NCBI RefSeq assembly: GCF_002940685.1
Contig: NZ_PNFP01000008.1
Span: 1 to 64,000 of the forward strand
DNA length: 64,000 nucleotides
Direction of reading: 5' to 3'
Origin: Ensifer adhaerens
Lineage (GTDB): Bacteria; Pseudomonadota; Alphaproteobacteria; Rhizobiales; Rhizobiaceae
Of this stretch, positions 3,691-23,099 are shown in pieces (the first letter of the stretch is position 1; every line of letters begins with the position of its first letter). Under the pieces are notes generated by a model. It ran no database searches. It was not told where the DNA came from and was given only the letters and a program-made list of their open reading frames with translations. The position numbers were made by a program, and so were the translations under genes.

Positions 3691-5166
3691 TCACGCCATC
3701 CGGCGTGATCGGTTGTTCCAAAGTCCCCGCGCCGTCTCGCAGGCCGCCTCGAAATCATCGTGATTGCGCAGGCTGATGAGAGCGGCAGCCGTGGTCGTGA
3801 TGATGATTGTTTCGGCGCGCTCGTCGCGGGCGGCACCGGTCCAGACGGCCTGCCAGTATTCGCGGCTGCTGAGGCCCGTGCGCGGCTCGGCCGGCGGCGC
3901 CGTCCTTGCGGGGACGATGAGGTCGGAAACTTCGCCGCCGACAAGGCGGAAAAGCGGCGTCTGGCGGTAGGGCGTGAACTCGGCGTGGTCGCGGGTATTG
4001 CCGAGGATCGTCAGTTCCCTCGTGCCGAGCAGCAGGGCGATGTCGCGGCTGAGCGTGCGGCTCGAGGGATTGGCGACGCCGAGCAGGCTTGCCCGCCCGC
4101 CCATCGGGTTGATGAGATGGATGGCCGCGTTCAGCGGCATGCGCATTTCCATCAGCCGATAGAGCCCCAGCAAACGATAGATCTGCGGGGCAAAGGCAGA
4201 CAGCGGCAGGTAGGCGATTCCTGCCGATCCAAGCGCCGTCTTGGCTGCGGCGATCGACGTGCAGATCGGGATGCCGGCTGCGGAGGCGGCGATCTCGAGC
4301 TTGTGCCGTTCCTCGCTTGCCTCGCCGTAGTTCCCATGCAGCACGACGCGATGACCGGCGTCGGCGACAAGCCGTGCTGAATGCAGGAACCAGGGCGCGG
4401 TCTTCAGTTTCGGCGAGAGATAGCAGGGCCAGTCGAGATCGGCGATACGGCCTGCCGGTGCGATCGCGCCGACATGGCGGCGCATGGCGCGCACGAAACC
4501 GGCCACTTCCACCGCGGTCGGTCCGCGATAATGCAGCACGGTCATCAGAGCGCCGATCTGCACCGGATCGGCCTCGCCGGCAAGGATGATCGCCAGCGCA
4601 TCCTCGGCCTCCTCTTCGCTCAAGGGGCGGCTGCGGCCTGCACCGGTACCAACAGTGGCGATGCAACGGGCCAGCCGGCGTTCGGGCGCGGCATCGCCGC
4701 CGATCTCGGCCAGTTTTGCCGCGAATTGCTCCGGTGCCGGTTCGCCTTCGAGCAGGCGGCTCGGACGGACTGACAAGGGTGGTGCTTCGCTCAGGGCCTG
4801 CCCTCCCCAGCCTGCGTGCCCCGCTTGCGGTGGCGCTGACGGGCCACCCACTGCATGAGCGCCAAACAGCGCCTCGGTCTCTGCGGCAAGAGCGCGCACG
4901 CGCAGTCGCAGCGACTCGGCAAGCGGCGTCGGGCGAAGGCCGTGGCCGGTGCGCAGGAACAGGGGATCGGCATAGTCTTTGCGTAATTGACCGAGCAAGC
5001 GGCTCATCGCCGAGGGCTGAAGTCCGACGCTCGCGGCCGCGCGGCTGACGCTGTTTTCGCGCAACAGCGCATCGAGCGCCACGAGGAGGCGCAGCTTGCT
5101 CAGGTCCGTCTGACGGTCGTTCGAGACCGGCTTGCCCACCGCTTCGCCCGTTCGTTCTTGCGCCAT
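3691..5166 (-). CDS. LysR-type HTH fused to a TrpD2/YbiB-like glycosyltransferase-fold domain
   Basis: This 491-residue protein has two parts. Residues about 20-85 are a LysR-type winged HTH (LLVALDALLRENSVSRAAASVG, then PSAMSRLLGQLRKDYADPLFLRTGHGLRPTPLA, each seen as separate blocks). Residues about 145-480 resemble the anthranilate phosphoribosyltransferase fold of the TrpD2/YbiB branch: a helical N-domain (SEEEAEDALAIILAGEADPVQ), then a segment ending GHRVVLHGNYG, and later INPMGGRASLLGVANPSSRT. The phosphoribosyl-diphosphate motif GTGGD of true TrpD is absent, and the normal LysR effector domain is missing. It is divergent from the TonB receptor across 150 bases containing strong inverted repeats, so it may regulate that gene. 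The biochemical role is unknown; the domain calls are by eye. Confidence 0.75.
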   Translation of the reverse strand: MAQERTGEAVGKPVSNDRQTDLSKLRLLVALDALLRENSVSRAAASVGLQPSAMSRLLGQLRKDYADPLFLRTGHGLRPTPLAESLRLRVRALAAETEALFGAHAVGGPSAPPQAGHAGWGGQALSEAPPLSVRPSRLLEGEPAPEQFAAKLAEIGGDAAPERRLARCIATVGTGAGRSRPLSEEEAEDALAIILAGEADPVQIGALMTVLHYRGPTAVEVAGFVRAMRRHVGAIAPAGRIADLDWPCYLSPKLKTAPWFLHSARLVADAGHRVVLHGNYGEASEERHKLEIAASAAGIPICTSIAAAKTALGSAGIAYLPLSAFAPQIYRLLGLYRLMEMRMPLNAAIHLINPMGGRASLLGVANPSSRTLSRDIALLLGTRELTILGNTRDHAEFTPYRQTPLFRLVGGEVSDLIVPARTAPPAEPRTGLSSREYWQAVWTGAARDERAETIIITTTAAALISLRNHDDFEAACETARGLWNNRSRRMA

Positions 5167-5255: not shown

Positions 5256-5318
5256 TTGACCGCCTCCTTCGCCAATAACTAAGTGGAGTTCATTACTCAA
5301 GATATATGTGGGGCGAAG

Positions 5319-7490
5319 ATGATGAAGCGGATGGGGCTTGCGACGGAAACCGATGGCCGGCGGCAACGGACCGGTCAACCGGGCCGGCGCGGCCCGGCCG
5401 GATGGTCGCGTCGTTTCGTCTGCGCCTGCCTTGCCGGCACGGCGTTGACGGCACCGGCGGAAGCGTTGGCGCAGAAGGCCAAGGAAAAGGACAAGGAGAA
5501 GGCGACCGAACTCGAGCAGATCGTGGTGACGGCGACCGGCTTCGAGCAGAACGTCAAGGAGGCGCCGGCGAGCATTACGGTCATCTCGGGCGAAGACCTG
5601 CAGAAGCGGTCGTTCCGCGATCTGACCGACGCGCTGCGCGACGCACAAGGCGTGGCGGTGACCGGCGTCGCCAACGAGCGCGACATCTTCATCCGCGGCC
5701 TGCCCGGCTCCTACACGCTGATCCTCGTCGACGGCAAACGCCAGAGCACGCGCGACGCGCGCACCAACGGCAATTCCGGCTTCGAGCAGAGCTTCGTTCC
5801 GCCGGCGGCCGCCATCGAACGCATCGAGATCGTGCGCGGCCCGATGTCGTCGCTCTATGGTTCCGATGCCATGGGCGGGGTCATCAACATCATCACCCGC
5901 AAGGTTGCCGATACATGGACCGGCTCGGTCACGACCGACGGCACGATGCAGCAGCACAAGCGCTTCGGCAATTCCGGGCAAATGTCGTTCTATACGAGCG
6001 GGCCGATCCTGAAGGATACGCTCGGCGTGCAGATCTGGGGTCGTGGCCTGAAGCGCGGCGAGGACAACTTCCTCTCCGGCATCACCGGCGCGAAGGAGCA
6101 TGATCTGACCGCCCGCCTCTCCTATACGCCGAACGAGGATCACGACTTCTTCCTGGAAGGCGGGAAGGCGCGGCTGAAGCGCGACGCCAATGTCGGCAAC
6201 ACCATCGCGCCCGGACCGCGGGCCGTCAGCACCTACAACGAAAACGACCGCGATCATTGGTCGTTCTCGCATACGGGACGTTGGGGGCCGACGACCTCGG
6301 ACTTCTCCATCCTGCAGGAATGGGCGGAGCGGCGGAACTACAATTACAGCCAGGCGGATGGCCGTTTCATCAAGCAGCCGCGCGCGCCTCAGGTGCGCAA
6401 CACGGTGATCGACGGCAAGTTCACCACACCGTTCGAACTCGGCGGCAGCCATACGCTGGTGACCGGCGGGCAGTATTTCGAGGCGCGGCTGTCCGATCAG
6501 AACCCGGGACGCCGCACGGGCAAGAACGAGACCTTCTCGGCGACGCAATGGGCGCTGTTTGCCGAGGACGAGTGGCGCATGGTGGACAGCTTCGCGCTGA
6601 CCACCGGTCTGCGCCTGGATCATCACGAGGTGTACGGTTACCACCTCAGCCCGCGCATTTACGGCGTCTGGGACGCGACCGACATGCTGACGGTCAAGGG
6701 TGGCGTTTCCACCGGCTTTCGCGCGCCCGATATCCGCAGCATTGCACCGGGCTATGCCTATACGACCGGCGGCGGCGGTTGCACCTACGGGCCGACCGGC
6801 ACCTGCGGCGTCATCATCGCCGACCCGAACCTCAAGGCCGAATCGAGCACCAGCTATGAAATCGGCGCGGTCTGGGACAATGGCGACGTCATCCTCGGCG
6901 GCACCTATTTCTACACCGATTTCAAGGACAAGATTTCCAACCTGCCGGTGGTCGACGCTTCCGGCAATCCGGTGCGCTGGAGCGAGGATCCGAACTACCG
7001 CCTCTGGTACAACTACAATATCGACGACGCGGTCATCCAGGGTGTGGAACTGACGGCGACGTGGAATGCGACCTCGGATCTGACGCTGCGCGCCAGCTAT
7101 ACCTATACCCAGTCGGAACAGAAGACCGGAGATTTCGCCGGCTTCCCGCTGGCGCGCACGCCGGAGCACATGGCCAATATCAGGGCCGACTGGTACACGC
7201 CGATCGAAGGCCTCGAGGCCTGGGCCTCGGTCAACTATCACGGCGAGGAAATCTCCGCCGGCCCGCGTGTCTCCACCACCAGCGGCAAGCCGGTGAGGAT
7301 CAACGGCAAGACAGGCTACAAGTATGACGCCTACACCACTGTCGATGTCGGCACGAAATACGATGTCGGCGAAGGGCTGACGCTCAATGCGGCCGTCTAC
7401 AACCTCTTCGACAAGGAGGTCGAGCCGACCGATTTCAATGCGGTCGGGGAAGGCCGCCGCTTTTGGCTGAGCCTGACGGCGACATTCTGA
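5319..7490 (+). CDS. TonB-dependent outer-membrane receptor, FepA/CirA-like
   Basis: This 723-residue receptor should import an iron chelate or other large nutrient across the outer membrane using TonB energy. A long basic N-region is followed by a hydrophobic signal segment (FVCACLAGTALTAPAEALAQ), a TonB-box-like EQIVVTAT, a plug domain (PASITVISGEDLQKRS, RDIFIRGLPGSYTLILVDGK, IERIEIVRGPMSSLYGSDAM), and a beta-barrel ending in the outer-membrane C-terminal Phe (RRFWLSLTATF). Plug wording is closest to the catecholate siderophore and colicin receptors. ATG at 5319 is chosen over a GTG at 5283 because the latter lacks a ribosome binding site. No receptor-linked ABC transporter is nearby. Ligand is unknown. 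Confidence 0.9.
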   Translation: MMKRMGLATETDGRRQRTGQPGRRGPAGWSRRFVCACLAGTALTAPAEALAQKAKEKDKEKATELEQIVVTATGFEQNVKEAPASITVISGEDLQKRSFRDLTDALRDAQGVAVTGVANERDIFIRGLPGSYTLILVDGKRQSTRDARTNGNSGFEQSFVPPAAAIERIEIVRGPMSSLYGSDAMGGVINIITRKVADTWTGSVTTDGTMQQHKRFGNSGQMSFYTSGPILKDTLGVQIWGRGLKRGEDNFLSGITGAKEHDLTARLSYTPNEDHDFFLEGGKARLKRDANVGNTIAPGPRAVSTYNENDRDHWSFSHTGRWGPTTSDFSILQEWAERRNYNYSQADGRFIKQPRAPQVRNTVIDGKFTTPFELGGSHTLVTGGQYFEARLSDQNPGRRTGKNETFSATQWALFAEDEWRMVDSFALTTGLRLDHHEVYGYHLSPRIYGVWDATDMLTVKGGVSTGFRAPDIRSIAPGYAYTTGGGGCTYGPTGTCGVIIADPNLKAESSTSYEIGAVWDNGDVILGGTYFYTDFKDKISNLPVVDASGNPVRWSEDPNYRLWYNYNIDDAVIQGVELTATWNATSDLTLRASYTYTQSEQKTGDFAGFPLARTPEHMANIRADWYTPIEGLEAWASVNYHGEEISAGPRVSTTSGKPVRINGKTGYKYDAYTTVDVGTKYDVGEGLTLNAAVYNLFDKEVEPTDFNAVGEGRRFWLSLTATF

Positions 7491-7557: not shown

Positions 7558-8730
7558 TCAGGCGCCCTGCTCTACCCCCAAAGTCGATAGCAGGCTTTGC
7601 ATTCTTTGGGCTGCCAGTTCCGGCCGATCGAGCACATTGGCGCGGTCGGCAAGGCGGAAGATGTCCGCGTAGTGCAGCACCCCGCGGGCCGACTGCATGC
7701 CCGAAGGCATTGTGAAATGGCGCTGGTGCCCGTTCAGCCAGGCAAGGAAGACGACGCCGGCCTTGTAGTACTGCGTCGGCGCCTCGAAGATCTTGCGCGA
7801 CAAGGGGACCGTCGGTTCGATCACGCCGCGGAAGGTGGAAAGATCATCCCTGGCGAGTGCGGCGAGCGCCTTGGAGGCGGAGGGGGCCACCGCATCGAAG
7901 ATGCCCAGCAGCGCATGGCTGTATTTGCGGCCGTCGCCTTCGATCAGTTCGGCGTAGTTGAAGTCGTCGCCGGTAAAGCAGAGCACGCCATCGGGTAAGC
8001 GATTGCGCAGCGCCACTTCCTTGGCATTGTCGAGCAGCGAGATCTTGATGCCTTCGACCTTGTCGCGGTTGGCCCCGATGATCGACAGCACGGTGTCGAG
8101 CGCCTCATCGAAATCCTCCGAGCCCCAATAGCCTCGAAGCTGCGGATCGAACATGTCGCCGAGCCAGTGCAGCACGACCTTGTGCCTGACCTGACCAAGG
8201 ATGCGGCCATAGACAAGGCGATAGTCGTCGGCGGAGCGGGCGACGCGGGCAAGCGCCCGGCTCGCCATCATGATCGCCCTGCCCCCCTCGCCTTCGACGA
8301 AGCCGACCTGTTCCTCATAGGCGGCAATCACGTCGTCCAGCGATCGCGTGTCGGCCGGCGCCAGATGATCGGTACCGGCGCCGCAGGCAAGGTCGGCGTC
8401 CGGGACCTGGCGTGCATCTGCCAGCGAGCGACGGATCAGCTCCTGCGCGCCCGGCCAGGCAAGGCCCATGCCGCGCTGGGCCGTGTCCATCGCCTCGGCG
8501 ATCTTGAAGCCGAGGCTCCAGAGGTGATGGCGAAACGCCATCGTCGCGTCCCAGTCGATCGCCGGATTGCCCCAGGGATCGAGGTCGCGGAGCGGATCCG
8601 AGACCACATGGGCGGCCGCATAGGCGATGCGGTTGAAGGTCGGCGGCGTCTTGGGCCGTTCGATTGGCGTTCCGGTCAGGTGGAACTGTTCAAGCGAACC
8701 GTCTTGGCGCGGCAGCGTCAGGCTTGTCAT
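7558..8730 (-). CDS. DUF993 / dihydrodipicolinate synthase-like TIM-barrel protein
   Basis: This 390-residue protein is of the DUF993 family, which database entries often name dihydrodipicolinate synthase family protein; an aldolase-like TIM barrel is expected. It has no signal peptide. Recognisable blocks are NRIAYAAAHVVSDPLRDLDP near the N-terminus, GMGLAWPGAQELIRRS, KVEGIKISLLDNAKEVALRN and LPDGVLCFTGDDFNYAELI, and PTQYYKAGVVFLAWLNGHQ near the C-terminus. The lysine in GIKISLLD is the best Schiff-base candidate (inference). The start ATG (8728-8730) follows GGAGGAG on the reverse strand. It is divergent from the lacI-afr operon, and a LacI-type palindrome lies 40 bases upstream, so co-regulation is likely. 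The substrate is unknown. Confidence 0.8.
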   Translation of the reverse strand: MTSLTLPRQDGSLEQFHLTGTPIERPKTPPTFNRIAYAAAHVVSDPLRDLDPWGNPAIDWDATMAFRHHLWSLGFKIAEAMDTAQRGMGLAWPGAQELIRRSLADARQVPDADLACGAGTDHLAPADTRSLDDVIAAYEEQVGFVEGEGGRAIMMASRALARVARSADDYRLVYGRILGQVRHKVVLHWLGDMFDPQLRGYWGSEDFDEALDTVLSIIGANRDKVEGIKISLLDNAKEVALRNRLPDGVLCFTGDDFNYAELIEGDGRKYSHALLGIFDAVAPSASKALAALARDDLSTFRGVIEPTVPLSRKIFEAPTQYYKAGVVFLAWLNGHQRHFTMPSGMQSARGVLHYADIFRLADRANVLDRPELAAQRMQSLLSTLGVEQGA

Positions 8731-8769
8731 TGGGGTCGGTCTCCTCCGCGGACGTTTGTCTTGGAATAC

Positions 8770-8785
8770 TTTGGATCGTTCCAAA
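8770..8785. promoter_or_regulatory. LacI-type operator before the DUF993 gene
   Basis: TTTGGATCGTTCCAAA is a 16-base palindrome with one mismatched pair. It matches the perfect sites at 8972-8989 and 23082-23099 and lies 40 bases before the DUF993 start codon. Confidence 0.75.
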
Positions 8786-8964
8786 TGGCAAGCGGCAATG
8801 TTTTTGGGCGTCCGCCCCATGCCGGATCCTTAGGAGGTACGCCAAGATATATCGTTATTTTTCATAGATTTATGTGTGCAGCAAGCCTCCCTCCGATGTC
8901 GGTGATCTCGACTGTCTGGCCATATTGTGGGCGAGCGAGATCGAAAAAAGTGATCACCCAACTC

Positions 8965-8994
8965 TTGACGAAATTGGAACGTTCCAATTATGAA
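8965..8994 (+). promoter_or_regulatory. Promoter of the lacI-afr operon with an operator between -35 and -10
   Basis: A TTGACG -35 box (8965-8970) is followed after 17-18 bases by a weak TTATGA/TATGAA -10 (8988-8994). The spacer is filled by AATTGGAACGTTCCAATT (8972-8989), a perfect 18-base palindrome. This placement would let a LacI-type repressor block polymerase directly, consistent with autoregulation by the adjacent lacI gene. Confidence 0.7.
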
Positions 8995-9029
8995 AGAGAA
9001 AAGCAGGTGAGAAAATTCGGGAGGATGCT

Positions 9030-11068
<2,039 letters not shown>

Positions 11069-11072
11069 ACAG

Positions 11073-12692
11073 ATGTCGATGAGCAAGCATATCTCGCCGG
11101 CCGAAGCGGCCGCTATGATCCCGGATGGTGCGGTGGTTTCCGTCTCGTCGTCCAGCGGCCTCGGCTGCCCGGACCTGATGTTGAAGGCGATCGGCGAGCG
11201 CTTTGATGCAACCGGTCACCCGCGCAACCTGACGACGTTGCATCCGATCGCCGCCGGCGACATGAGCGGCATCAAGGGTGTCGATTACATCGCGAAGAAG
11301 GGCCTGCTGAAAAAGATCATCGGCGGCTCCTACCCGTCCGGCCCGTCGAGTGCCGAACCGCCGCTGATCTGGCAGATGATCGGCGCCAACGACGTGGCTG
11401 CCTACAACATTCCCTCCGGCATCCTCTTCGACATGCACCGCGAAGCGGCAGCCAAGCGGCCGGGCGTGATGACCAAGGTCGGTCTCGACACCTTCGTCGA
11501 CCCGTCGCGCGAAGGCTGCGCGATGAACGCCTCGGCCGCGTCCGAACCCGTGGTGAAGAAGGTTTCGTTCGAAGGCGAGGACTGGCTCTATTTCAAGGCG
11601 ATCGCGCCAGAAGTGGCGATCATCCGTGCGACGACGGCCGACGAGCGCGGCAACCTCACCTATGAGCACGAGGGCGCCTATCTCGGCGGCCTCGACCAGG
11701 CGCTCGCCGCTCGCAATAATGGCGGCATCGTCATTGCCCAGGTCAAGCGCATCACCAAGGAAGGATCGCTCAAACCCCACGACGTGCGCGTGCCCGGCGT
11801 GCTGGTCGACTACGTCATCGTCGATCCCGACCAGAAGCAGACGACCCAGACGCTCTATGATCCGGCGATATCGGGCGAGATCTTCCGGCCGCTCGACAGT
11901 TTCCGCGTGCCGGAATTCAACATTCAGAAGGTGATTGCCCGCCGCGTCGCGCAGGAGCTTGAGGCCGGCAGCGCCGTCAACCTCGGCTTCGGCATCTCGG
12001 CCAACGTGCCGCGCATCCTGCTTGAAGAAGGCCTGCACGGTGCCGTCACCTGGGTGATCGAGCAGGGCGCCGTCGGTGGCGTGCCGCTCTTGGACTTCGC
12101 CTTCGGCTGCGCGTCGAACGCGGACGCCTTCATGCCCTCGCCCTACCAGTTCACCTACTTCCAGGGCGCCGGCTTCGATGCTTCGCTGCTCTCGTTCCTC
12201 GAGATCGACCGCCATGGCTCGGTCAACGTGTCGAAGCTCTCCTTCCGTCCGCATGTGACGGCTGGCGCCGGCGGTTTCGTCGACATCACCGCGCGGGCGA
12301 AGAAGATCGTCTTCTCCGGCATGTTCAATGCCGGCGCCAAGCTTTCGATCGAGGGTGGCAAGCTGGTGATCGAGAAGGAAGGCAAGCTGAAGAAGCTGGT
12401 CAACGAGGTCGAACACGTCACCTTCTCCGGCCGTCGCGGCATCGAGCAGGGTCAGGACATCACCTATGTGACCGAGCGCTGCGTGATGAAGCTGACGCCT
12501 CAAGGCGTGATGCTGACGGAGATCGCGCCGGGTGTCGATCTGCAGGCACATATCCTCGACCAGTCCGAGTTCCCGCTGATCGTGTCGGACAAGCTGAAGA
12601 CCATGGACGCGGCACTGTTCCAAGAGGCGTCGATCGGATTGGAGCTGCCGAAGAAGCCGGCGCGCCGGCTTCAGGGAGGCGACCGTGGCTGA
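11073..12692 (+). CDS. Acyl-CoA:carboxylate CoA-transferase (YdiF-like, fused subunits)
   Basis: This 539-residue enzyme is a single-chain family I CoA-transferase, with the two half-domains that in other members are separate A and B subunits. The first half starts MSMSKHISPAEAAAMIPDGA and includes GSYPSGPSS and CAMNAS. The second half holds FNIQKVIARRVAQEL, SAVNLGFGISANVPRIL and the catalytic-glutamate neighbourhood VTWVIEQGAVGGVPL. It probably moves CoA between an acyl-CoA and a short-chain acid made by this pathway. The ATG at 11073 lies four bases after the afr stop. It overlaps the next gene by eight bases. The actual acid is unknown. Confidence 0.88.
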   Translation: MSMSKHISPAEAAAMIPDGAVVSVSSSSGLGCPDLMLKAIGERFDATGHPRNLTTLHPIAAGDMSGIKGVDYIAKKGLLKKIIGGSYPSGPSSAEPPLIWQMIGANDVAAYNIPSGILFDMHREAAAKRPGVMTKVGLDTFVDPSREGCAMNASAASEPVVKKVSFEGEDWLYFKAIAPEVAIIRATTADERGNLTYEHEGAYLGGLDQALAARNNGGIVIAQVKRITKEGSLKPHDVRVPGVLVDYVIVDPDQKQTTQTLYDPAISGEIFRPLDSFRVPEFNIQKVIARRVAQELEAGSAVNLGFGISANVPRILLEEGLHGAVTWVIEQGAVGGVPLLDFAFGCASNADAFMPSPYQFTYFQGAGFDASLLSFLEIDRHGSVNVSKLSFRPHVTAGAGGFVDITARAKKIVFSGMFNAGAKLSIEGGKLVIEKEGKLKKLVNEVEHVTFSGRRGIEQGQDITYVTERCVMKLTPQGVMLTEIAPGVDLQAHILDQSEFPLIVSDKLKTMDAALFQEASIGLELPKKPARRLQGGDRG

Positions 12693-13464
12693 GGGACGTA
12701 TCCGCATCGAGGTCGAAGGCGCGATCGCGACGATGACGGTCGCGCGTCCGGAAAAGCTCAACGCCTTCGACATCGACATGCTGAAGGCGCTGGCGTCCGC
12801 CTGCGACACGGTCGAGGCCGACCGCAAGATCCGCGTCGTCATCCTGACCGGCGAAGGCAAGGCGTTTTCGGCCGGCGGTGACATCAAGGCCTGGGGCGGC
12901 ATGGATGCGCCCGCGTTCGGTCATGACTGGGTGCGGTTCGGTCATCGGGTGTTCGAGCGGCTGGCGACGCTGCGCATGCCCGTGATCGCGGCGCTGAACG
13001 GCCATGCGCTCGGCGGCGGGCTGGAGCTTGCGGCGGCGGCGGATTTCCGCCTGGCCGAGGCCCAGATCAAGATCGGCCTGCCGGAAACAAGCCTCGGCAT
13101 GGTGCCCGGCTGGTCCGGAACGCAGCGCCTTGTCTCACGCTTCGGCGCCCAGATTGTCAGGCGCATGGTGCTCGGCGGCGAGATGTTCACGGCCGAGGCA
13201 GCTCTCAAGCAAGGTCTCGTCGATGCCGTCGTCGAGACCGGCACGGTGCTTACAGCTGCCCGCGACTATGCGGCGCGTATCGCCAAGCGCGGGCCGGCGG
13301 CACTCGAAATTTCGAAACTGATGATCGCTTCGGCGAATGGCGAGGACAACGGGTCCGCCGTCGAGGCCCTCGGCTCGATCCTTGTTGCCAAGACCGGCGA
13401 CCTCAAGGAAGGCGTCGCCGCGTTCTCGCAGAAGCGTGAAGCCCAATTCAAGGGAGAATGGTAA
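12685..13464 (+). CDS. Enoyl-CoA hydratase/isomerase family protein
   Basis: This 259-residue crotonase-fold protein has the oxyanion-hole blocks GEGKAFSAGGDIKAWGG and ALNGHALGGGLELAAAADFR, then LPETSLGMVPGWSGTQRL. In the last block Glu in PETSLG aligns with a common catalytic position, whereas a second glutamate in the GGG-ELA helix is Glu-Leu. It should hydrate or isomerise an acyl-CoA. The GTG at 12685 has AGGGAGG six bases upstream and overlaps the CoA-transferase by eight bases. Its TAA shares one base with the next ATG. Context points to catabolism of one acid and not general fatty-acid oxidation, because no acyl-CoA dehydrogenase or thiolase is present. Confidence 0.9.
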   Translation: MAEGRIRIEVEGAIATMTVARPEKLNAFDIDMLKALASACDTVEADRKIRVVILTGEGKAFSAGGDIKAWGGMDAPAFGHDWVRFGHRVFERLATLRMPVIAALNGHALGGGLELAAAADFRLAEAQIKIGLPETSLGMVPGWSGTQRLVSRFGAQIVRRMVLGGEMFTAEAALKQGLVDAVVETGTVLTAARDYAARIAKRGPAALEISKLMIASANGEDNGSAVEALGSILVAKTGDLKEGVAAFSQKREAQFKGEW

Positions 13465-14972
13465 TGACCGTGCTGGTGAAACCCAAGCCGATCGAGGGCC
13501 ACAAGGTCCGTGCGTTCCAGATGCTGATCGATGGCAAATGGGTGGACAGCGCCGAAGGGCGCACGATCGAGCGCGTGGCGCCGGGCCATGGCGTCACCGT
13601 CAGCCGCTATCAGGCGGGCACCAAGGCCGACGCCGAAAAGGCGATCGCCGCCGCCCGTCGCGCCTTCGATGAAGGCGCCTGGCCGCGCATGACCGCGTCT
13701 GAGCGCTCGCTGGTGCTGCTGCGCGCAGCCGACATGATTGCCGAGCGCGCCGACGAACTCGCCTATCTCGACGCGATCGAATCCGGCAAGCCGATCAGCC
13801 AGGCCAAGGGCGAACTCGGCGGTGCCGCCGATATCTGGCGCTATGCCGCGGCCCTTGCCCGCGATCTGCATGGCGAAAGCTACAATACGCTCGGCGACGG
13901 CACGCTCGGCGTTGTGCTGCGCGAGGCGATCGGCGTCGTCTCGATCATCACGCCCTGGAACTTCCCGTTCCTGATCGTCAGCCAGAAGCTGCCTTTTGCG
14001 CTTGCTGCGGGCTGCACCACGGTCGTCAAGCCGTCGGAACTGACCTCGGCCTCGACGCTGCTGCTTGGCGAAATTCTTGAGGCGGCGGGCGTTCCCTCAG
14101 GTGTCGTCAACATCATCACCGGCACGGGGCCCGAGGTCGGCGCGCCGATGACGACTCATCCCGACGTCGACATGGTGTCCTTCACCGGTTCGACCGGTGT
14201 CGGCCGGCTGACCATGGCCAATGCGGCGCAGACGCTGAAGAAGGTGTCGCTGGAGCTCGGCGGCAAGAACCCGCAGATCGTCTTTCCGGACGCCAATCTC
14301 GACGAGTTCATCGATGCCGCCGTCTTCGGCGCCTATTTCAACGCCGGCGAATGCTGCAATGCCGGCTCGCGACTGATCCTGCACCGTGACATCGCCGACG
14401 AGGTGACGCGCCGCATCGCCGCGCTCTCGGCCAAGGTGAAGGTGGGCGATCCGCTCGACCCGGAAACCCAGGTCGGCGCGATCATCACGCCGCAGCACCT
14501 GGAAAAGATTGCCGGCTATGTTTCTGCCGCTTCCAGGGATGGAGCAGCGGTCGCCCATGGCGGCACGGCGCTCGATCTCGGCATGGGCCAGTTCATGGCG
14601 CCGACGATCCTTTCTTCCGTGCGTCCGGACATGGCGGTGGCGCGCGAGGAAGTGTTCGGCCCGGTTCTCTCGGTGCTGACCTTCGAGACGACGGAAGAGG
14701 CGATCCGGATCGCCAATGCGATCGACTACGGGCTTTCGGCTGGTGTGTGGAGCCGCGATTTCGACACCTGCCTGACGATCGGCCGCCGCGTGCGCGCCGG
14801 CACCATCTGGATGAACACCTTCATGGACGGTGCGTCCGAGCTTCCGTTCGGCGGCTATCGCCAGTCCGGTCTTGGTCGCGAACTCGGAAGGCATGCGGTG
14901 GAGGACTACACCGAGACCAAGACACTCAACATGCATATGGGCGCGCGCACCGGCTGGTGGATGCCGCGCTAG
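13464..14972 (+). CDS. NAD(P)-dependent aldehyde dehydrogenase
   Basis: This 502-residue ALDH-superfamily enzyme should oxidise the pathway aldehyde to its acid. It has the cofactor motif PWNFPFLIVSQKLPFALAAG, the FTGSTGVGR loop, the general base Glu264 in LELGGKNP, and the nucleophile Cys298 in GECCNAGSR. The C-terminal block FGGYRQSGLGRELG is of the betaine- and aminoaldehyde-type ALDH group, but the substrate cannot be fixed. ATG at 13464 is chosen over one at 13458 because GGGAGA is then seven bases away. It is the last gene of the lacI-afr operon. The next gene converges from 15073. Confidence 0.93.
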   Translation: MTVLVKPKPIEGHKVRAFQMLIDGKWVDSAEGRTIERVAPGHGVTVSRYQAGTKADAEKAIAAARRAFDEGAWPRMTASERSLVLLRAADMIAERADELAYLDAIESGKPISQAKGELGGAADIWRYAAALARDLHGESYNTLGDGTLGVVLREAIGVVSIITPWNFPFLIVSQKLPFALAAGCTTVVKPSELTSASTLLLGEILEAAGVPSGVVNIITGTGPEVGAPMTTHPDVDMVSFTGSTGVGRLTMANAAQTLKKVSLELGGKNPQIVFPDANLDEFIDAAVFGAYFNAGECCNAGSRLILHRDIADEVTRRIAALSAKVKVGDPLDPETQVGAIITPQHLEKIAGYVSAASRDGAAVAHGGTALDLGMGQFMAPTILSSVRPDMAVAREEVFGPVLSVLTFETTEEAIRIANAIDYGLSAGVWSRDFDTCLTIGRRVRAGTIWMNTFMDGASELPFGGYRQSGLGRELGRHAVEDYTETKTLNMHMGARTGWWMPR

Positions 14973-15072: not shown

Positions 15073-16137
15073 TCAGCCGGCAGTGCCGAAGCTCGACGGG
15101 ATCTGCGGACAGAGCAGCAGTTGCAGCTTGCTGACGTCGCTTTCGCCGCCGATCTTCTGCAGCAGAACCCGGCCCATGTCCTCGCCGGTTGCCGTCAGGT
15201 CCTCGTAGATCGTCTCGACCTGCGGCTGGATGGCGCTCAAGAGATGCGAGGTCTGCTTGGCGACGATGTCGTACTCGCGACCGAGCGTCAGCCCGCAATC
15301 GCTCATGCCGGTGATGGTCGCCAGCGCGCAGACTTCGCCGCCGCACATGAAACTGTCGGGCGGATCGGGCTCGGCGTAGCGCTGGCGGACGCGATCGCGG
15401 ATCGCGCCGGCAGGGCTGTCGAGATCGATGCCGGAGAGGATTTCGTAAGCGCAGCCCGCTTCGCGCACCGCGGTCATGAAGCCGTGCTGCAGATGGCCGG
15501 CAAAGGTGAAATCGGCGGGACCGCTGATCAGTGCGGGCTTGCGCCTGCCCTTGGCGATCAGGCGCTTCGTCGCCTGGTAGGAGAAGGTGAAATTGTCGTA
15601 GTCGACATAGGGATGCGGGGTGGAAAGCTCCGTGCGTCCATGGGTGACGAAGGGAAAGCCGAGATCGGAAAGCAGCCGCACACGCGGATCGAGCGGCTCG
15701 GTGCGCGAGAAGATCAGGCCGTCGGCCATGCCGTTGCGGGTGATGTAGTTGACCGCCTCGACATTGGTCGAGTTGAGAAAATTGGGCATGACGATCAGGT
15801 GGTAGGCGGTGCCCTGCAGCGCCTTGGCGATGCCGCTCATGATCGAGGTGCCGTAGCCGAGAATTTCCTCGTGCGGGTCGAGCAGCACGCCGATGACGTT
15901 GGTGCGCCCGGTCTTCAGGCGCTGGGCGGCGCGGTCGGGCGAGTAGCCGATCTCGTCGGCGACCTCGCGCACGCGCCTTCGCGTCTCGATGGAGATCTGC
16001 GGGGCATCGGAAAGCGCGCGCGAAACGGTGGTGACCGCAAGGCCGGTTATTTCCGCGATCGTGCGAAGGGTCGGCTTGCCGCGTTTGACGGCCAAACCAC
16101 TGTCTTCGGCGTGGGCGGGCTTGGAGGGATCGGCCAA
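15073..16137 (-). CDS. LacI family regulator of the sugar ABC transporter operon
   Basis: This 354-residue regulator starts with a short acidic/basic tail and then a LacI HTH (TLRTIAEITGLAVTTVSRAL, hinge RRRVREVADEIGYSPDRAAQRL). The effector domain begins RTNVIGVLLDPHEEILGYGT. It is divergent from the sugar-binding protein gene. The shared 303-base gap contains two copies of AACGTTTTAAAT, one over the transporter promoter, so it most likely represses the transporter and perhaps itself. It is distinct from the LacI protein at 9030, and its expected site is also different. The sugar effector is unknown; its wording recalls regulators of alpha-glucoside-type systems, but that is weak. Confidence 0.92.
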   Translation of the reverse strand: MADPSKPAHAEDSGLAVKRGKPTLRTIAEITGLAVTTVSRALSDAPQISIETRRRVREVADEIGYSPDRAAQRLKTGRTNVIGVLLDPHEEILGYGTSIMSGIAKALQGTAYHLIVMPNFLNSTNVEAVNYITRNGMADGLIFSRTEPLDPRVRLLSDLGFPFVTHGRTELSTPHPYVDYDNFTFSYQATKRLIAKGRRKPALISGPADFTFAGHLQHGFMTAVREAGCAYEILSGIDLDSPAGAIRDRVRQRYAEPDPPDSFMCGGEVCALATITGMSDCGLTLGREYDIVAKQTSHLLSAIQPQVETIYEDLTATGEDMGRVLLQKIGGESDVSKLQLLLCPQIPSSFGTAG

Positions 16138-16211
16138 TGCTAGTCATCCTGAAAGCGGGCAAGAGCGGGTTTTGTAACGTGGTGCGAACGCTTAGGCAAT
16201 CGAATCATGCA

Positions 16212-16223
16212 AACGTTTTAAAT
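16212..16223. promoter_or_regulatory. LacI-type half-palindrome repeat, copy 1
   Basis: AACGTTTTAAAT, preceded by CA, lies 75 bases before the divergent lacI start. An identical 12-mer occurs at 16348-16359. The core AAACGTTT is self-complementary, as in LacI operators. Confidence 0.6.
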
Positions 16224-16329
16224 CTCGCATCGCGGTATGATTTGTTGCGCTGCAACAGCTAATCCGTGCTATATAATTCAGTAAATTCAACCGGTTCCGA
16301 AGCTGCTAAAATACAAGACTGTGGAATGC

Positions 16330-16359
16330 TTGACTTGCTGAATTTATAACGTTTTAAAT
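16330..16359 (+). promoter_or_regulatory. Transporter promoter with overlapping LacI-type repeat, copy 2
   Basis: TTGACT (16330-16335) and TTAAAT (16354-16359) form a -35/-10 pair with an 18-base spacer. The repeat AACGTTTTAAAT (16348-16359) covers the -10, which suits repression. The start codon of the binding-protein gene is 82 bases downstream. Confidence 0.6.
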
Positions 16360-16440
16360 GGCCAGCCGCTGGCTCAAGCGGCGCGAATTCCGGGGTGGAA
16401 GGAGGTTCCACTTCGAAAACTTGCAAACGGGAGGATAACG

Positions 16441-17685
16441 ATGCGCAAGTTGATGACGACGACGGCCGTTGTGGCGCTGATGATGGCGGCCACCGCCGCG
16501 CGCGCAGCCGAAAACGTGGAAGTTCTGCACTGGTGGACATCCGGCGGCGAAGCCGCCGCGCTCGACGTTCTGAAGAAGGATCTGGAAAGCAAGGGCATTT
16601 CCTGGACCGACATGCCGGTTGCCGGTGGTGGCGGTACGGAAGCCATGACCGTTCTGCGCGCTCGCGTCACCGCGGGCAACGCCCCGACCGCCGTTCAGAT
16701 GCTCGGCTTCGACATTCTCGACTGGGCCAAGGAAGGCGCGCTTGGCAACCTCGACGAGACCGCTGCCAAGGAAGGCTGGGACAAGGTGGTCCCGACCGCA
16801 CTGCAGCAATTCTCGAAGTATGACGGCCACTGGATCGCAGCGCCGGTCAACGTGCACTCGACCAACTGGGTCTGGATCAACAAGGCAGCACTCGACAAGG
16901 CTGGCGGCAAGGAGCCGACCAACTGGGACGAGCTGATCGCGCTGCTCGACAACTTCAAGGCCCAAGGCATCACCCCGATCGCCCATGGCGGCCAGCCCTG
17001 GCAGGATGCGACGATCTTCGACGCCGTCGTGCTTTCGCTCGGCACCGACTTCTACAAGCAGGCCTTCATCGACCTCGACCCGGCAGCGCTCGGCGGCGAC
17101 AAGATGAAGGAAGCCTTCGATCGCATGACGAAGCTGCGCTCCTATGTCGACGACAATTTCTCGGGTCGCGACTGGAACCTCGCTTCCGCCATGGTCATCG
17201 AGAACAAGGCCGGCCTGCAGTTCATGGGCGACTGGGCCAAGGGCGAGTTCCTGAAGGCCAAGAAGGTCCCGGGCACCGACTTCGTCTGCATGCGCTTCCC
17301 GGGCACGCAGGGCGCCGTCACCTTCAACTCCGACCAGTTCGCGATGTTCAAGGTTGCCGACGACAAGGTTCCGGCACAGCTCGCCATGGCTTCGGCCATT
17401 GAAAGCCCGACCTTCCAGTCGGCCTTCAACGTGGTCAAGGGCTCGGTCCCGGCCCGCACCGACGTTCCGGACACGGACTTCGACGCTTGCGGCAAGAAGG
17501 GCATCAAGGACCTCGCCGAAGCCAATGCCAGCGGCAAGCTCTTCGGTTCCATGGCCCATGGCCATGCCAACCCGGCTGCCGTCAAGAACGCGATCTACGA
17601 CGTCGTGACGCGTGAGTTCAACGGCGAACTGACGTCCGAACAGGCCGTCAAGGAACTGGTCTCTGCCGTCGAGGCAGCGAAGTAA
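16441..17685 (+). CDS. Sugar ABC transporter periplasmic binding protein (CUT1)
   Basis: This 414-residue solute-binding protein is exported by a clear Sec signal ([19 protein letters not shown], cut after ARA) and continues [18 protein letters not shown], the start typical of family 1 carbohydrate-binding proteins. The blocks [29 protein letters not shown] and GDWAKGEFL support a glucose/mannose- or oligosaccharide-type protein. The ATG at 16441 follows GGGAGGA with good spacing. It heads an operon with two permeases, an ATPase, a GMC oxidoreductase and an SDR. A strong hairpin separates it from the permeases, a common device for making more binding protein than membrane parts. Substrate unknown. 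Confidence 0.93.
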
Positions 17686-17695
17686 CGGGCTCGTT

Positions 17696-17720
17696 CCGGG
17701 GCGCAACCAAAGCGCCCCGG
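17696..17720 (+). terminator. Intercistronic hairpin after the binding-protein gene
   Basis: CCGGGGCGC (17696-17704) and GCGCCCCGG (17712-17720) form a perfect 9-base-pair stem with a 7-base loop, 10 bases after the stop. No T-run follows, so it more likely stabilises or trims the upstream mRNA, or terminates only partly, than ends the operon. Confidence 0.7.
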
Positions 17721-17859
17721 ACACCCACTCCGACATGCAAGCGCCGTCGAACCGCCGTGGCCAATGGGACGCGGGGAAGGGCGCATTGATACCCAGAACC
17801 TCGCGCGGATGCCGATATCAGGGACTTCCCGACGGCCGCGCCAGAAGTGGTGAACGTTC

Positions 17860-18738
17860 ATGGATAGCCGCAGCCGACTGCAGGACCTGATACCGAAGCT
17901 GGTGCTTGCCCCGAGCTTCCTTATCGTCCTGATCTTTGTCTATGGTTTCATTGCCTATACCGGCTTTCTGTCGATGACGGACAGCAAGATGCTGCCGTCC
18001 TACAATTTCGTCGGTTTGAGCAACTATGCGAAGCTGTGGGCGCTGCCGCACTGGTGGCGGGCGGTGAGCAACCTGGCGATCTTCGCAGCACTTTACATCG
18101 CCATCTGCTCCATCCTTGGCCTTGGACTGGCGATCCTGCTCGATCAGAAAATCCGCGCCGAAGGGTTCCTGCGCCCGATCTATCTCTATCCGATGGCGCT
18201 TTCCTTCATCGTGACCGGTACCGCCTGGAAGTGGTTCCTCGACCCGGGCATCGGGCTTGAGAACACCATGCATCTCTGGGGTTGGGAGAGCTTCTCCTTC
18301 AACTGGATCAAGGACCGCAACTACGCCATCTACTGCGTCGTCATCGCCGCCGTCTGGCAGTCGACCGGCTTCATCATGGCGATGTTCCTGGCGGGCCTTC
18401 GCGGCGTCGACAACGAGATTATCAAGGCAGCCCAGATCGACGGCGCCAAGACCTCGACGATCTATCGCCGCATCATCATTCCCTTGATGCGCCCGGTGTT
18501 TCTGTCCGCCTTCGTGGTGCTCGCGCATCTGGCGATCAAGGCCTACGACCTGATCATCGCGCTCACCGGCGGTGGCCCGGGGCAGGCGACGGAACTGCCG
18601 GCGACCTTCATGTATTCCTATACCTTCACCCGCAACCAGATGGGCATCGGCGCGTCTTCGGCGATCATCATGCTGGTGATGATCTTCTCGATCATCGTTC
18701 CCTATCTCTATTCCGAAATCCGGGGAGCAAAACGCTGA
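17860..18738 (+). CDS. Sugar ABC transporter permease 1 (MalF-like)
   Basis: This 292-residue inner-membrane protein has six hydrophobic segments and the transporter EAA loop (EIIKAAQIDGAKTSTIYRRI, just before the C-terminal membrane spans). It begins MDSRSRLQDLIPKLVLAPSF, the usual opening of first permeases in CUT1 systems. It pairs with the second permease and the ATPase. The ribosome binding site is poor, which with the upstream hairpin suggests lower output than the binding protein. Its stop overlaps the next start by one base. Confidence 0.93.
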   Translation: MDSRSRLQDLIPKLVLAPSFLIVLIFVYGFIAYTGFLSMTDSKMLPSYNFVGLSNYAKLWALPHWWRAVSNLAIFAALYIAICSILGLGLAILLDQKIRAEGFLRPIYLYPMALSFIVTGTAWKWFLDPGIGLENTMHLWGWESFSFNWIKDRNYAIYCVVIAAVWQSTGFIMAMFLAGLRGVDNEIIKAAQIDGAKTSTIYRRIIIPLMRPVFLSAFVVLAHLAIKAYDLIIALTGGGPGQATELPATFMYSYTFTRNQMGIGASSAIIMLVMIFSIIVPYLYSEIRGAKR

Positions 18739-19619
18739 TGAGCGCTCCGAGCCCAGACAACATCATTTCGCACAACCGCCTCACCCGCGCGCTGATCTAC
18801 ACCGCGCTGATCCTCTTCGCGCTCTATTCGCTGCTGCCGCTCTACGTCATGCTGGTGAATTCGGTGAAGCCGCTCGACGAGATCCGCCAGGGCGGCATGC
18901 TCAACCTGCCGCAGACTTTCACGGTCGAGCCTTGGCTGCAGGCCTGGTCGACGGCGCAGATCGGCGTTCAGCCGACCGGCCTCAAGCCCTTCTTCATCAA
19001 CTCGATCCTGATGGTCGTGCCGGCGGTGGCGATCTCGACGATCGTCGGCGCGCTCAACGGCTACGTCCTGACGAAGTGGCGCTTCCCGGGTGCCAACATC
19101 TTCTTCGGCATGCTGCTTCTGTCCTGCTTCATCCCGTTCCAGATCGTGCTGATCCCGATGGCGCGCATCCTTGGCATCCTCGGGCTCGCCGGTTCGATCT
19201 GGGGCCTGATCTTCGTGCATGTGATCTACGGCATCGGCTTCACGACGCTCTATTTCCGCAACTACTACGAGGCGTTTCCGACCGAACTGGTGCGCGCAGC
19301 GCAGATCGATGGTGCGAGCTTCTTCCAGATCTTCTGGCGCATCCTCTTGCCGTCGTCCGGCCCGATCATCGTCGTTTCGGTCATCTGGCAGTTCACCAAC
19401 ATCTGGAACGACTTCCTGTTCGGCGCGTCCTTCTCCGGACCCTATTCGACGCCGATGACGGTCGCGCTCAACAACCTCGTTTCGTCCTCGACAGGCGTCA
19501 AGGAATACAACGTTCACTTCGCGGGCGCGATCCTCGCCGCCCTGCCAACGCTCATCGTCTACATCGTGTCCGGCCGCTACTTCGTTCGCGGGCTGATGTC
19601 GGGCGCCGTGAAAGGATAA
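18738..19619 (+). CDS. Sugar ABC transporter permease 2 (MalG-like)
   Basis: This 293-residue inner-membrane permease has six hydrophobic segments and the EAA loop ELVRAAQIDGASFFQIFWRI. Its N-terminus (MSAPSPDNIISHNRLTRALI, then LFALYSLLPLYVMLVNSVKP) is typical of the second CUT1 permease. The ATG at 18738 shares its A with the TGA of the first permease, so the two are coupled and made in equal amounts. The ATPase starts four bases after its stop. Confidence 0.93.
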   Translation: MSAPSPDNIISHNRLTRALIYTALILFALYSLLPLYVMLVNSVKPLDEIRQGGMLNLPQTFTVEPWLQAWSTAQIGVQPTGLKPFFINSILMVVPAVAISTIVGALNGYVLTKWRFPGANIFFGMLLLSCFIPFQIVLIPMARILGILGLAGSIWGLIFVHVIYGIGFTTLYFRNYYEAFPTELVRAAQIDGASFFQIFWRILLPSSGPIIVVSVIWQFTNIWNDFLFGASFSGPYSTPMTVALNNLVSSSTGVKEYNVHFAGAILAALPTLIVYIVSGRYFVRGLMSGAVKG

Positions 19620-19623
19620 GCTC

Positions 19624-20739
19624 ATGTCTTTCTTGAAAATCAGCAACCTGCGCAAATCCTACGGCTCGCTCGAGATCCTGAAGGACATCAATCTGGAGAT
19701 CGAGGAAGGCGGCTTCCTGGTGCTGGTCGGCCCGTCCGGCTGCGGCAAGTCCACGCTTCTCAACACGATTGCGGGCCTTGAGCCGATCACCTCCGGCGAC
19801 ATCGCCATCAAGGGCCGCTCGGTCTCCGACCTGCATCCCTCCAAGCGCGACATCGCCATGGTGTTCCAGTCCTACGCGCTCTATCCCAACATGACCGTTG
19901 CCGGAAACATCGCCTTCGGCATGGAAATCCGCGGCGTGCCGAAGGAAGAGCGCGAGAAGGCGATCAAGCAGGTCGCCGACATGCTGCAGATCGGCCACCT
20001 GCTCGACCGCAAGCCGAGCCAGCTCTCCGGCGGCCAGCGCCAGCGTGTCGCCATGGGCCGGGCGCTGGTGCGCAACCCGCAGGTCTTCCTGTTCGACGAG
20101 CCGTTGTCCAACCTTGACGCCAAGCTGCGCGTCGACATGCGCACGGAAATCAAGCGGCTGCACAATCGCATGAAGACGACAATCGTCTACGTCACCCACG
20201 ACCAGATCGAGGCGATGACGCTCGCGACCAAGATCGCCGTTTTGAAGGACGGCGTGCTGCAGCAGTTCGGGACGCCCGCCGAAATCTACAACAACCCGGC
20301 AAACATGTTCGTCGCCGACTTCATGGGTTCGCCGGCGATGAACCTTTTGACCGCGCGCATCGAAAAAAGTGGTTCTGACATTGCCGTGGCGCTGGCGCGC
20401 CCGAATGCCGAGCCGCTGAAGCTTGCGGTGCCGCAGGCCAATGGTGCGCTGTCGGCTTATGCCGGCAAGGACGTCGTCTTCGGCATTCGCCCGGAAGCGC
20501 TGACCGACCCTGACGGCGCCGACCGCAACGCCAAGGTAGTGGCCGAGGGCGACTGCCTGATCGAGGTGGTGGAGCCCGCCGGTTCCGATACCTTTGCCGT
20601 CACCCGTCTCGGCGGCAAGGAGATCGTTGCTCGGCTCCGAGCCGATGCCCGCATTGCCGCCGGCCAGACCTCGCGGCTTGCCTTCAATCTCGACAAGGCG
20701 GTGTTCTTCGACCCGCAGAGCCAGCAGCGGATCGCGTAA
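19624..20739 (+). CDS. Sugar ABC transporter ATPase (UgpC/MalK type)
   Basis: This 371-residue ATPase energises the two permeases. It shows the Walker A GPSGCGKST, signature LSGGQRQRVAMGRALV, Walker B VFLFDEPLSNLDAKLR, and switch histidine in YVTHDQIEAMT, in order over residues 35-205. The C-terminal part (FGIRPEALTDP and onward) is the regulatory TOBE/OB region of the MalK group. Length is usual. It is followed six bases later by a GMC oxidoreductase gene in the same direction, tying transport to sugar oxidation. Confidence 0.94.
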   Translation: MSFLKISNLRKSYGSLEILKDINLEIEEGGFLVLVGPSGCGKSTLLNTIAGLEPITSGDIAIKGRSVSDLHPSKRDIAMVFQSYALYPNMTVAGNIAFGMEIRGVPKEEREKAIKQVADMLQIGHLLDRKPSQLSGGQRQRVAMGRALVRNPQVFLFDEPLSNLDAKLRVDMRTEIKRLHNRMKTTIVYVTHDQIEAMTLATKIAVLKDGVLQQFGTPAEIYNNPANMFVADFMGSPAMNLLTARIEKSGSDIAVALARPNAEPLKLAVPQANGALSAYAGKDVVFGIRPEALTDPDGADRNAKVVAEGDCLIEVVEPAGSDTFAVTRLGGKEIVARLRADARIAAGQTSRLAFNLDKAVFFDPQSQQRIA

Positions 20740-23081: not shown

Positions 23082-23099
23082 ATTTGGAACGTTCCAAAT
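23082..23099. promoter_or_regulatory. LacI-type operator before the second GMC gene
   Basis: ATTTGGAACGTTCCAAAT is a perfect 18-base palindrome, 24 bases upstream of the ATG. Its core is the same as the operator of the lacI-afr operon at 8972-8989. This makes the GMC-Dabb-glycerate kinase genes probable members of the same regulon. Confidence 0.8.

Follow-up and report, generated by a model that had tools for sequence, protein, structure and literature searches.

The window, a 64,000-nucleotide stretch of Ensifer adhaerens DNA (contig NZ_PNFP01000008.1, positions 1 to 64,000), contains a gene unit that spans 7558 to about 26380 and is longer than the region 7558-14972 covered by the original prediction. 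The cluster of an anhydrofructose reductase gene with genes for a CoA-transferase, an enoyl-CoA hydratase and an aldehyde dehydrogenase, as claimed there, was found on the forward strand. In this operon, the LacI-family regulator LacI1 (9030-10070; PF00356 and PF13377) is followed by the predicted 1,5-anhydro-D-fructose reductase Afr (10067-11068), a Gfo/Idh/MocA protein that matches 2glx at 1.8e-193 and 4koa at 3.3e-184, a YdiF/FadX-type family I CoA-transferase (CoAT, 11073-12692; PF01144; 2ahu, YdiF, 1.9e-113), an enoyl-CoA hydratase (ECH, 12685-13464; PF00378; 5zai, a 3-hydroxypropionyl-CoA dehydratase, 2.2e-50) and an aldehyde dehydrogenase (ALDH, 13458-14972; PF00171), whose closest solved relative is the L-sorbosone dehydrogenase 7w5l. 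Adjacent genes share 4, 8 or 7 bases, or have 4 bases between them. The DUF993 gene (7558-8730, reverse strand; PF06187, 618 bits; solved relative 4dnh, which is SMc04132) is divergent from these five genes (9030-14972).

A second LacI-family regulator, LacI2 (15073-16137, reverse strand; PF00356), follows ALDH, and all further genes lie on the forward strand. A AACGTTTT-type palindrome (16342-16359) is located 5' of the gene for the solute-binding protein of an ABC importer (SBP, 16441-17685; PF01547), a member of the glucose-binding-protein family, which is followed by two permeases (17860-18738 and 18732-19619; both PF00528), a MalK-type ATPase (19624-20739; PF00005 and PF17912), the flavoenzyme GMC1 (20746-22245; PF05199) and an SDR dehydrogenase of the 3-ketoacyl-ACP reductase type (22242-23021; NF009386). 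The importer, GMC1 and SDR thus sit between the ALDH-side genes and a putative operator at 23083-23098, beyond which are the choline-dehydrogenase-like flavoenzyme GMC2 (23124-24779; PF00732 and PF05199), a Dabb (A/B barrel) protein (24788-25105; PF07876, 57.4 bits) and a MOFRL-type glycerate 2-kinase (25115-26380; PF13660 and PF05161). The TonB receptor gene at 5283-7490 was not included in the unit, as the LacI1 operator is absent there.

Operators and regulation

Two putative LacI1 operators, TTTGGATCGTTCCAAA (8770-8785, DUF993 side) and ATTGGAACGTTCCAAT (8973-8988, lacI1-afr side), lie in the gap between DUF993 and LacI1 and are common to both directions, which agrees with the earlier claim that DUF993 shares an operator with the Afr operon. 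The third copy, at 23083-23098, is a perfect palindrome and precedes GMC2, Dabb and the glycerate 2-kinase. The operator search gave six matches over both strands, which correspond to three sites, whereas shuffling gave a mean of 0.38, and when up to two mismatches were allowed, three of the four sites in the whole 7.5 Mb genome were in this cluster. A site with two mismatches near position 288291 of the window's contig was rejected as a regulon member, its neighbours being of other function.

In relatives, two sites with at most two mismatches were present in all 22 LacI1-side loci, and such sites also precede Afr or CoAT in genomes that resemble Rhodobacteraceae and in another class, and precede GMC1 in four loci (L007, L096, L097 and L100). 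The GMC2 operator was present in only 1 of 13 3' flanks of relatives, which counts against the pathway proposed below. We tentatively read the cluster as a catabolic regulon that is governed by two repressors, serves 1,5-anhydro-D-hexitols and includes this CoA pathway; of the explanations considered this is the most probable, though somewhat less likely than not.

Predicted functions of the encoded proteins

Afr resembles the solved 1,5-anhydro-D-fructose reductases over its full length (2glx, 645 bits, residues 3-333 of 333; 4koa, 615 bits), and the next PDB match scored 119 bits. By this full-length match, Afr is predicted to be an NADPH-dependent reductase that converts 1,5-anhydrofructose (AF) to 1,5-anhydromannitol (AM). 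CoAT is likewise similar to the family I, YdiF-type enzyme 2ahu over its full length (383 bits, residues 7-527), and Glu330, which we take to be the catalytic glutamate, is invariant in 48 sequences. In ECH, Glu114 and Glu134 occur in the GGGxE and PE contexts of crotonases and are presumably the catalytic pair, judging from the positions of E144 and E164 in rat ECH. Since both residues are kept in 46 of 46 sequences, ECH is likely to be a real (de)hydratase.

The DUF993 protein matches PF06187 only and gave no match to PF00701, the Pfam model of the DHDPS/NAL family. When it was compared by hhalign with the 10 DHDPS-family proteins of this genome, the probability was 80.8% (E 1.3e-5, 244 columns) with the GIK lysines in register, while five control families scored 0.2%. 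Lys229 is invariant in 35 sequences, and DUF993 appears to be distantly related to the DHDPS/NAL lyase family, Lys229 being the candidate Schiff-base residue. Its predicted model, built from an alignment of 3 sequences, had a pLDDT of 55.8, and Foldseek returned 4dnh followed by mixed TIM barrels, with the PhdJ hydratase-aldolase at rank 6-8; because the model is poor, this list is of little weight beyond 4dnh. DUF993 was named in no paper found by our literature search.

SBP is 87% identical to 4r2b, which was solved with bound glucose, and may simply belong to a glucose importer. Judging by locus tags, S. meliloti SMc04396, which is reported to be dextrin-induced, may correspond to this SBP. 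GMC1 belongs to the class of FAD-glucose and fructose dehydrogenases and pyranose oxidases; it matched 6a2u at 4.2e-33 and the fructose dehydrogenase 7w2j, and the pyranose oxidases more weakly. Its assignment as a pyranose oxidase by family was rejected (TIGR02462, 37.3 bits against a cut-off of 544.9). Pyranose oxidase itself is reported to convert 1,5-anhydroglucitol (AG) to AF. The kinase carries both expected domains (DUF4147, 277 bits; MOFRL, 122 bits), and the NCBIfam models were matched below their cut-offs (NF041176, 232.8 bits, cut-off 550).

Conservation and related clusters

The original prediction had proposed operon conservation as a check. We surveyed 151 genomes of the family, in which Afr was called at E<=1e-100 and CoAT at E<=1e-170, and found Afr in 31, CoAT in 42 and DUF993 in 48. 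All 31 Afr genomes have both CoAT and DUF993, a conservation beyond chance in Fisher tests that ignore relatedness; among the genomes without Afr, CoAT occurs in 11 and DUF993 in 17. Gene presence at individual loci was counted by tblastn, and the ORFs of GC-rich loci were chosen with a codon-position score. In the 19 Afr loci with both flanks, CoAT, ECH, GMC1, SDR, GMC2, DUF993 and LacI1 are each present in every locus, ALDH and SBP in 18 each, Dabb in 11 and the kinase in 6. The same order of genes and the operators are also seen outside the family, in other families and in a further class, and partial gene sets occur in Arthrobacter and Rhodothermales. From the shared operators and this conservation we conclude that the CoA genes are part of the pathway. 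It is very unlikely that the genes are neighbours by chance or make up a mosaic of operons without relation to each other, given the common operators, the overlapping genes, the cross-class conservation and the co-occurrence in 31 of 31 genomes, although 16 of 50 loci lack Afr or have another gene in its place.

The same 16 loci, which contain the CoA module without Afr, led us to reject the idea that Afr is obligatory for the module, and the module is therefore not specific to the substrate of Afr. The original prediction had offered two options, a different natural substrate of Afr or an undescribed anhydro-sugar route; we favour the latter, while these loci weigh against it. Among 38 GMC1 loci, nine lack Afr, and in seven of these its place is taken by a Gfo protein resembling levoglucosan dehydrogenase and a flavoprotein resembling fumarate reductase; SDR and DUF993 were not found in the region of these seven. 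Levoglucosan dehydrogenase, a Gfo/Idh/MocA enzyme acting on an anhydro sugar, is the best model for the Afr-replacing protein in the seven loci, but the score of 293.6 bits lies below the cut-off (650) and levoglucosan is a 1,6-anhydro sugar. We know of no CoA step in the levoglucosan dehydrogenase pathway. In a third type of cluster, CoAT, ECH, GMC2, SDR and DUF993 are combined with an acyl-CoA dehydrogenase, whose nearest models are those of acryloyl-CoA reductase and cyclohexanecarbonyl-CoA dehydrogenase, while Afr and GMC1 are both absent. An Afr-like protein (51%) without the operon is present at L008.

The cluster could instead be a CoA-dependent route with another substrate and chemistry; for example, a glucose-like pyranose or an osone would undergo oxidation at C2 or C3 and be degraded in the manner of beta-oxidation, with SDR as the 3-hydroxyacyl-CoA dehydrogenase, DUF993 cleaving a C-C bond and AF as merely one substrate of Afr. 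SDR and DUF993 accompany CoAT and ECH without Afr at L101, L157-L159 and L162, and this explanation would also suit the acyl-CoA dehydrogenase of the third cluster type, the glucose bound by the SBP ortholog and the similarity of ALDH to L-sorbosone dehydrogenase; Afr reportedly reduces osones as well. However, none of 34 Afr clusters contains an acyl-CoA dehydrogenase, no thiolase was seen, and the GH88 and B12 dehydratase genes of some Afr operons, described below, are not predicted by such chemistry. We regard it as a possible explanation, on the doubtful side.

A proposed route for 1,5-anhydro sugars

The cluster looks like an undescribed, oxygen-tolerant breakdown route for 1,5-anhydro sugars: probable steps are conversion of the sugar to an acid and its linkage to CoA, letting the ring open. 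The ABC importer would take in a gluco-configured pyranose, most simply AG, which GMC1 would oxidise at C2 to AF, and Afr would reduce AF to AM. GMC2 and ALDH would oxidise C6 of AM to give 1,5-anhydromannuronate, and CoAT would form its CoA ester. From this ester ECH would take H5 and the 4-hydroxyl, which are cis in manno and gluco sugars, giving a 4,5-unsaturated enol ether whose hydration would open the ring to 2-keto-3-deoxyhexonate. DUF993 would split this compound into pyruvate and D-glyceraldehyde, and the latter would be oxidised by ALDH to D-glycerate and converted by glycerate 2-kinase to 2-phosphoglycerate. According to hand-drawn Fischer projections, the 2-keto-3-deoxyhexonate would be D-KDG only with the manno configuration at C2, which would explain the need for the manno product of Afr. 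The assigned roles leave out SDR and Dabb and name no enzyme for the ring hydration, which counts against the route. The sequences provide gene content, conservation, operators and conserved catalytic residues; that Afr converts AF to AM is known from other work, and we infer the remaining steps.

AG occurs in almost every food, and neutropenia in GSDIb and G6PC3 deficiency is caused by its phosphate. According to a 2025 review (PMC12441222), an aerobic AG pathway has not been described so far, a probiotic would need an enzyme working in oxygen, and the enzyme that converts AM in Rhizobiaceae has yet to be identified. Our literature search, with subscription papers mostly outside its reach, found no description of a route such as the one proposed here. 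If true, the cluster would be that missing aerobic pathway, would place acyl-CoA chemistry within sugar catabolism and would give DUF993 its first function; it supplies 13 or so candidate genes for the AM conversion.

This review also repeats a proposal for Rhizobiaceae that the original prediction did not mention. Reported for Sinorhizobium morelense S-30.7.5, it has AF converted to AM, from which a C-1 oxygenase that has not been identified forms mannose (PMC12441222). This aerobic soil member of the Rhizobiaceae shares Afr and the conversion of AF to AM with the present case, but its route continues by P450-like C-1 hydroxylation, whereas here we find a CoAT/ECH module and, in the P450 search of the contig, no such gene. 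If the C-1 enzyme were encoded elsewhere, the CoA genes would have a different sugar as their substrate and share the repressor. P450 genes do occur elsewhere in the genome (contigs C13, C66 and C81); however, the P450 search found none on the window's contig (C77) and no C-1 oxygenase gene with afr, and Afr always occurs with CoAT (31 of 31 genomes). We thus consider the C-1 route unlikely for this cluster.

We return to ring opening through a CoA ester. In gut bacteria, the anaerobic AG/AM pathway (YbiW/PflD) has the same substrates and also needs to open the ring ether, as the E. coli radical enzymes do with AG6P and AM6P, but it differs in using 6-phosphates and an oxygen-sensitive glycyl radical enzyme, none of which is proposed here (PMC12441222). 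Its nearest parallel among our loci is L004, a single MAG with Afr, ALDH, the importer, Dabb and glycerate kinase, in which a B12 diol dehydratase replaces CoAT and ECH. In the degradation of cyclohexanecarboxylate and polyethylene glycol, an alcohol is converted through aldehyde and acid to a CoA ester, and the ring or ether is cleaved afterwards, as proposed here, although the substrates are not sugars and the ring-cleaving enzymes are different.

In polysaccharide-lyase pathways, a 4,5-unsaturated uronate is hydrated by GH88 and the ring opens, but no lyase is present here and the known systems work without CoA. The Arthrobacter operon at L009 encodes a GH88 unsaturated glucuronyl hydrolase similar to 1vd5 over its full length (4e-43, 151 bits, 340 residues). 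Both aspartates are aligned, the first at a residue that is Asn in chain 2ahf, and we take this pair to be catalytic. By tblastn, DUF993, SDR and a gene of the GMC2 type are absent from this operon, and no relative of the Arthrobacter GH88 was found in the first 30 kb of the window. Related clusters thus encode GH88, B12 diol dehydratase and a levoglucosan-dehydrogenase-like protein, which point to a chemistry of anhydro sugars or unsaturated uronates, and the first two fit the proposed ring opening. It is conceivable, and we put it forward with reserve, that the ether ring is opened aerobically through a C6 acid, a CoA thioester, dehydration by ECH and KDG-type cleavage by DUF993, and that in other lineages GH88 takes over the hydration, or the B12 diol dehydratase the entire opening of the ring.

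Gene layout and predicted operators

All genes named in the original prediction were confirmed in the window, namely Afr (1,5-anhydro-D-fructose reductase, 10067..11068, +), the CoA-transferase CoAT (11073..12692, +), the enoyl-CoA hydratase ECH (12685..13464, +), the aldehyde dehydrogenase ALDH (13458..14972, +) and DUF993 (7558..8730, -). The unit extends past these genes, through a MOFRL-type glycerate 2-kinase ending at 26380. Its downstream continuation comprises the LacI-type regulator LacI2 (15073-16137, -), the solute-binding protein (SBP, 16441-17685) of an ABC importer followed by two permeases and MalK to 20739, the glucose/fructose-dehydrogenase-class flavoenzyme GMC1 (20746-22245), a short-chain-type dehydrogenase (SDR, 22242-23021), a perfect LacI1 operator (23083-23098), the choline-dehydrogenase-like flavoenzyme GMC2 (23124-24779), the A/B barrel protein Dabb (24788-25105) and the kinase (25115-26380). 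When N-termini were judged by eye, a signal peptide was evident on SBP and none on the enzymes, suggesting that the sugar would be processed intracellularly.

We scanned the 7.5 Mb genome for TTTGGAWCGTTCCAAA with at most two mismatches, using the reversed pattern as control. Four sites were found, at 8770, 8973 and 23083 of the window and at C77:288291 on the same contig, the last adjoining unrelated genes; the control gave 0 sites in the genome. The proposed operator shared by DUF993 and the Afr operon corresponds to the sites at 8770 and 8973. Given the three window sites, LacI1 (9030..10070, +) probably controls DUF993, lacI1-afr-CoAT-ECH-ALDH and GMC2-Dabb-glycerate kinase. All 22 LacI1-side loci of relatives carry two sites at the same threshold (19/22 at one mismatch or fewer), and 400 kb of relatives' loci contained 45 sites, compared with 0.33 in base shuffles of the same DNA. 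At least one site was present in 19 of 34 further loci, typically 5' of Afr or CoAT; the other 15, several of them 3' flanks, had none, and L005, L009, L101 and the type C clusters described below belong to this group. A site precedes GMC1 in L007, L096, L097 and L100, and L103, from a genome of another class (G342), also has one. The GMC2 operator was present in just 1 of 13 relatives' 3' flanks (L132, same genus). We take SMc04401 to be the LacI1 ortholog. In one paper, SMc04401 is assigned a predicted regulon of about four genes.

An AT-rich palindrome with AACGTTTT lies 5' of the SBP gene (16342-16359) and is likely the LacI2 operator. Just past DUF993 is a siderophore-receptor-like TonB-dependent receptor (5283-7490, +), at which no LacI1 operator was found, and 3691-5166 (-) encodes an unusual fusion of a LysR-type DNA-binding domain (PF00126) with an anthranilate-phosphoribosyltransferase-like protein (PF02885, NF006564).

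Conservation and cluster variants

Comparison of operon conservation, one of the checks proposed in the original prediction, supported the grouping. Among 80 loci retained from at least 592 relatives, nine (L002-L009, L075) contain Afr of at least 46% identity along most of its length, and seven of these keep the order Afr, CoAT, ECH, ALDH; L004 has Afr and ALDH, and L008 Afr alone. Afr, CoAT and DUF993 occur in 31, 42 and 48 of 151 genomes of the family, and all 31 Afr genomes also carry CoAT (Fisher 2.7e-23) and DUF993 (Fisher 2.7e-20), with relatedness ignored. Across the phylum, 349 genomes were sampled and 22 of them had CoAT. Fifty loci, picked for an Afr, CoAT or DUF993 hit and some cut by contig ends, included 34 with Afr, alongside which we counted CoAT (33), ECH (32), ALDH (30), GMC1 (29), SBP (27), LacI1 (24), SDR (22), GMC2 (21), DUF993 (21), Dabb (12) and the kinase (7). 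When both flanks were fetched (19 Afr loci), CoAT, ECH, GMC1, SDR, GMC2, DUF993 and LacI1 were each present in 19/19.

The cluster variants carry the argument. Type A has Afr, SDR and DUF993. Type B (seven loci, in G230, G372, G102, G042, G012, G009 and G113) has a Gfo/Idh/MocA protein and a fumarate-reductase-like flavoprotein but lacks Afr, SDR and DUF993 across the region, G102 carrying DUF993 elsewhere. This Gfo protein, whose best match is the levoglucosan dehydrogenase model (293.6 bits, under its cut-off), never shares a locus with Afr among those compared. G067 and G269 lack both Afr and the type B replacement. Afr is replaceable, as type B and these two genomes show. Type C (L157-L159, partly L162 and L168) has CoAT, ECH, GMC2, SDR, DUF993, an acyl-CoA dehydrogenase (absent from L162) and an AP_endonuc_2 isomerase, with no Afr or GMC1; CoAT, ECH and DUF993 thereby appear to serve further substrates too, and L157, L158, L159 and L168 seem to encode a sugar route of similar kind that uses additional CoA enzymes. 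L159 also has a 4HBT thioesterase. Type D (L101) combines CoAT, ECH, kinase, SDR and DUF993 with a 4HBT thioesterase and another Gfo protein. Type E (L004) has Afr, ALDH, importer, Dabb, kinase and a B12 diol dehydratase large/medium subunit fusion, and neither CoAT nor ECH. Type F (L009, Arthrobacter) has Afr, CoAT, a Gluconate_2-dh3/GMC fusion, ECH, ALDH, a GH88 protein and GMC1. From these variants we read CoAT and ECH as a lower module served by several front ends, one of them Afr with GMC1.

The L004 fusion (15438-19198) lies 3' of the glycerate kinase in the Afr operon of a Hyphomicrobiales MAG; the one neighbour checked for a small subunit is an isochorismatase-family gene.

Proposed CoA-ester chemistry and ring opening

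The catalytic glutamates are intact, both in ECH (46/46) and the one in CoAT (48/48), so that ECH is expected to act as a (de)hydratase and CoAT to form CoA esters. Hydration of 4,5-unsaturated uronates is the reaction of GH88 enzymes, and the presence of a GH88 gene within the type F operon suggests an intermediate of this kind; ECH acting on anhydrohexuronyl-CoA would yield one. The B12 diol dehydratase, found where CoAT and ECH are missing, points to ring opening as a shared task of CoAT and ECH, by analogy with E. coli, in which radical enzymes open AG6P and AM6P (PMC12441222). By our stereochemical derivation, ring-opened anhydromannuronate would give D-KDG and anhydroglucuronate its C5 epimer. 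Since D-KDG would arise only from the manno form, there would be a reason for GMC1 and Afr to convert the gluco to the manno configuration ahead of ring opening.

The published proposal, as recounted in PMC12441222, runs from 1,5-anhydrofructose via 1,5-anhydromannitol to mannose by a C-1 oxygenase that the review calls unidentified. The P450 genes of this genome lie only on contigs other than C77. In the literature searched, we found no account of an anhydro-sugar route that depends on CoA.

Importer, possible product and DUF993

1,5-Anhydroglucitol is 1-deoxyglucose. The importer's SBP has an 87% identical relative that was crystallised with glucose; uptake of glucose itself may be all that this importer does. 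The glycerate kinase lies within the regulon in the window's genus and recurs in types D and E, which points to glycerate as a pathway product.

In profile alignment, DUF993 is a distant DHDPS relative that keeps the lysine. Because the motifs flanking it differ, this kinship does not fix the substrate of DUF993. Seven loci without CoAT (L169-L174, L176) have DUF993 copies 57-62% identical to that of the window, which appear to represent a second DUF993 pathway. Several of these copies adjoin Gfo/Idh/MocA and CUT1 ABC genes, and one adjoins an enolase-superfamily gene.
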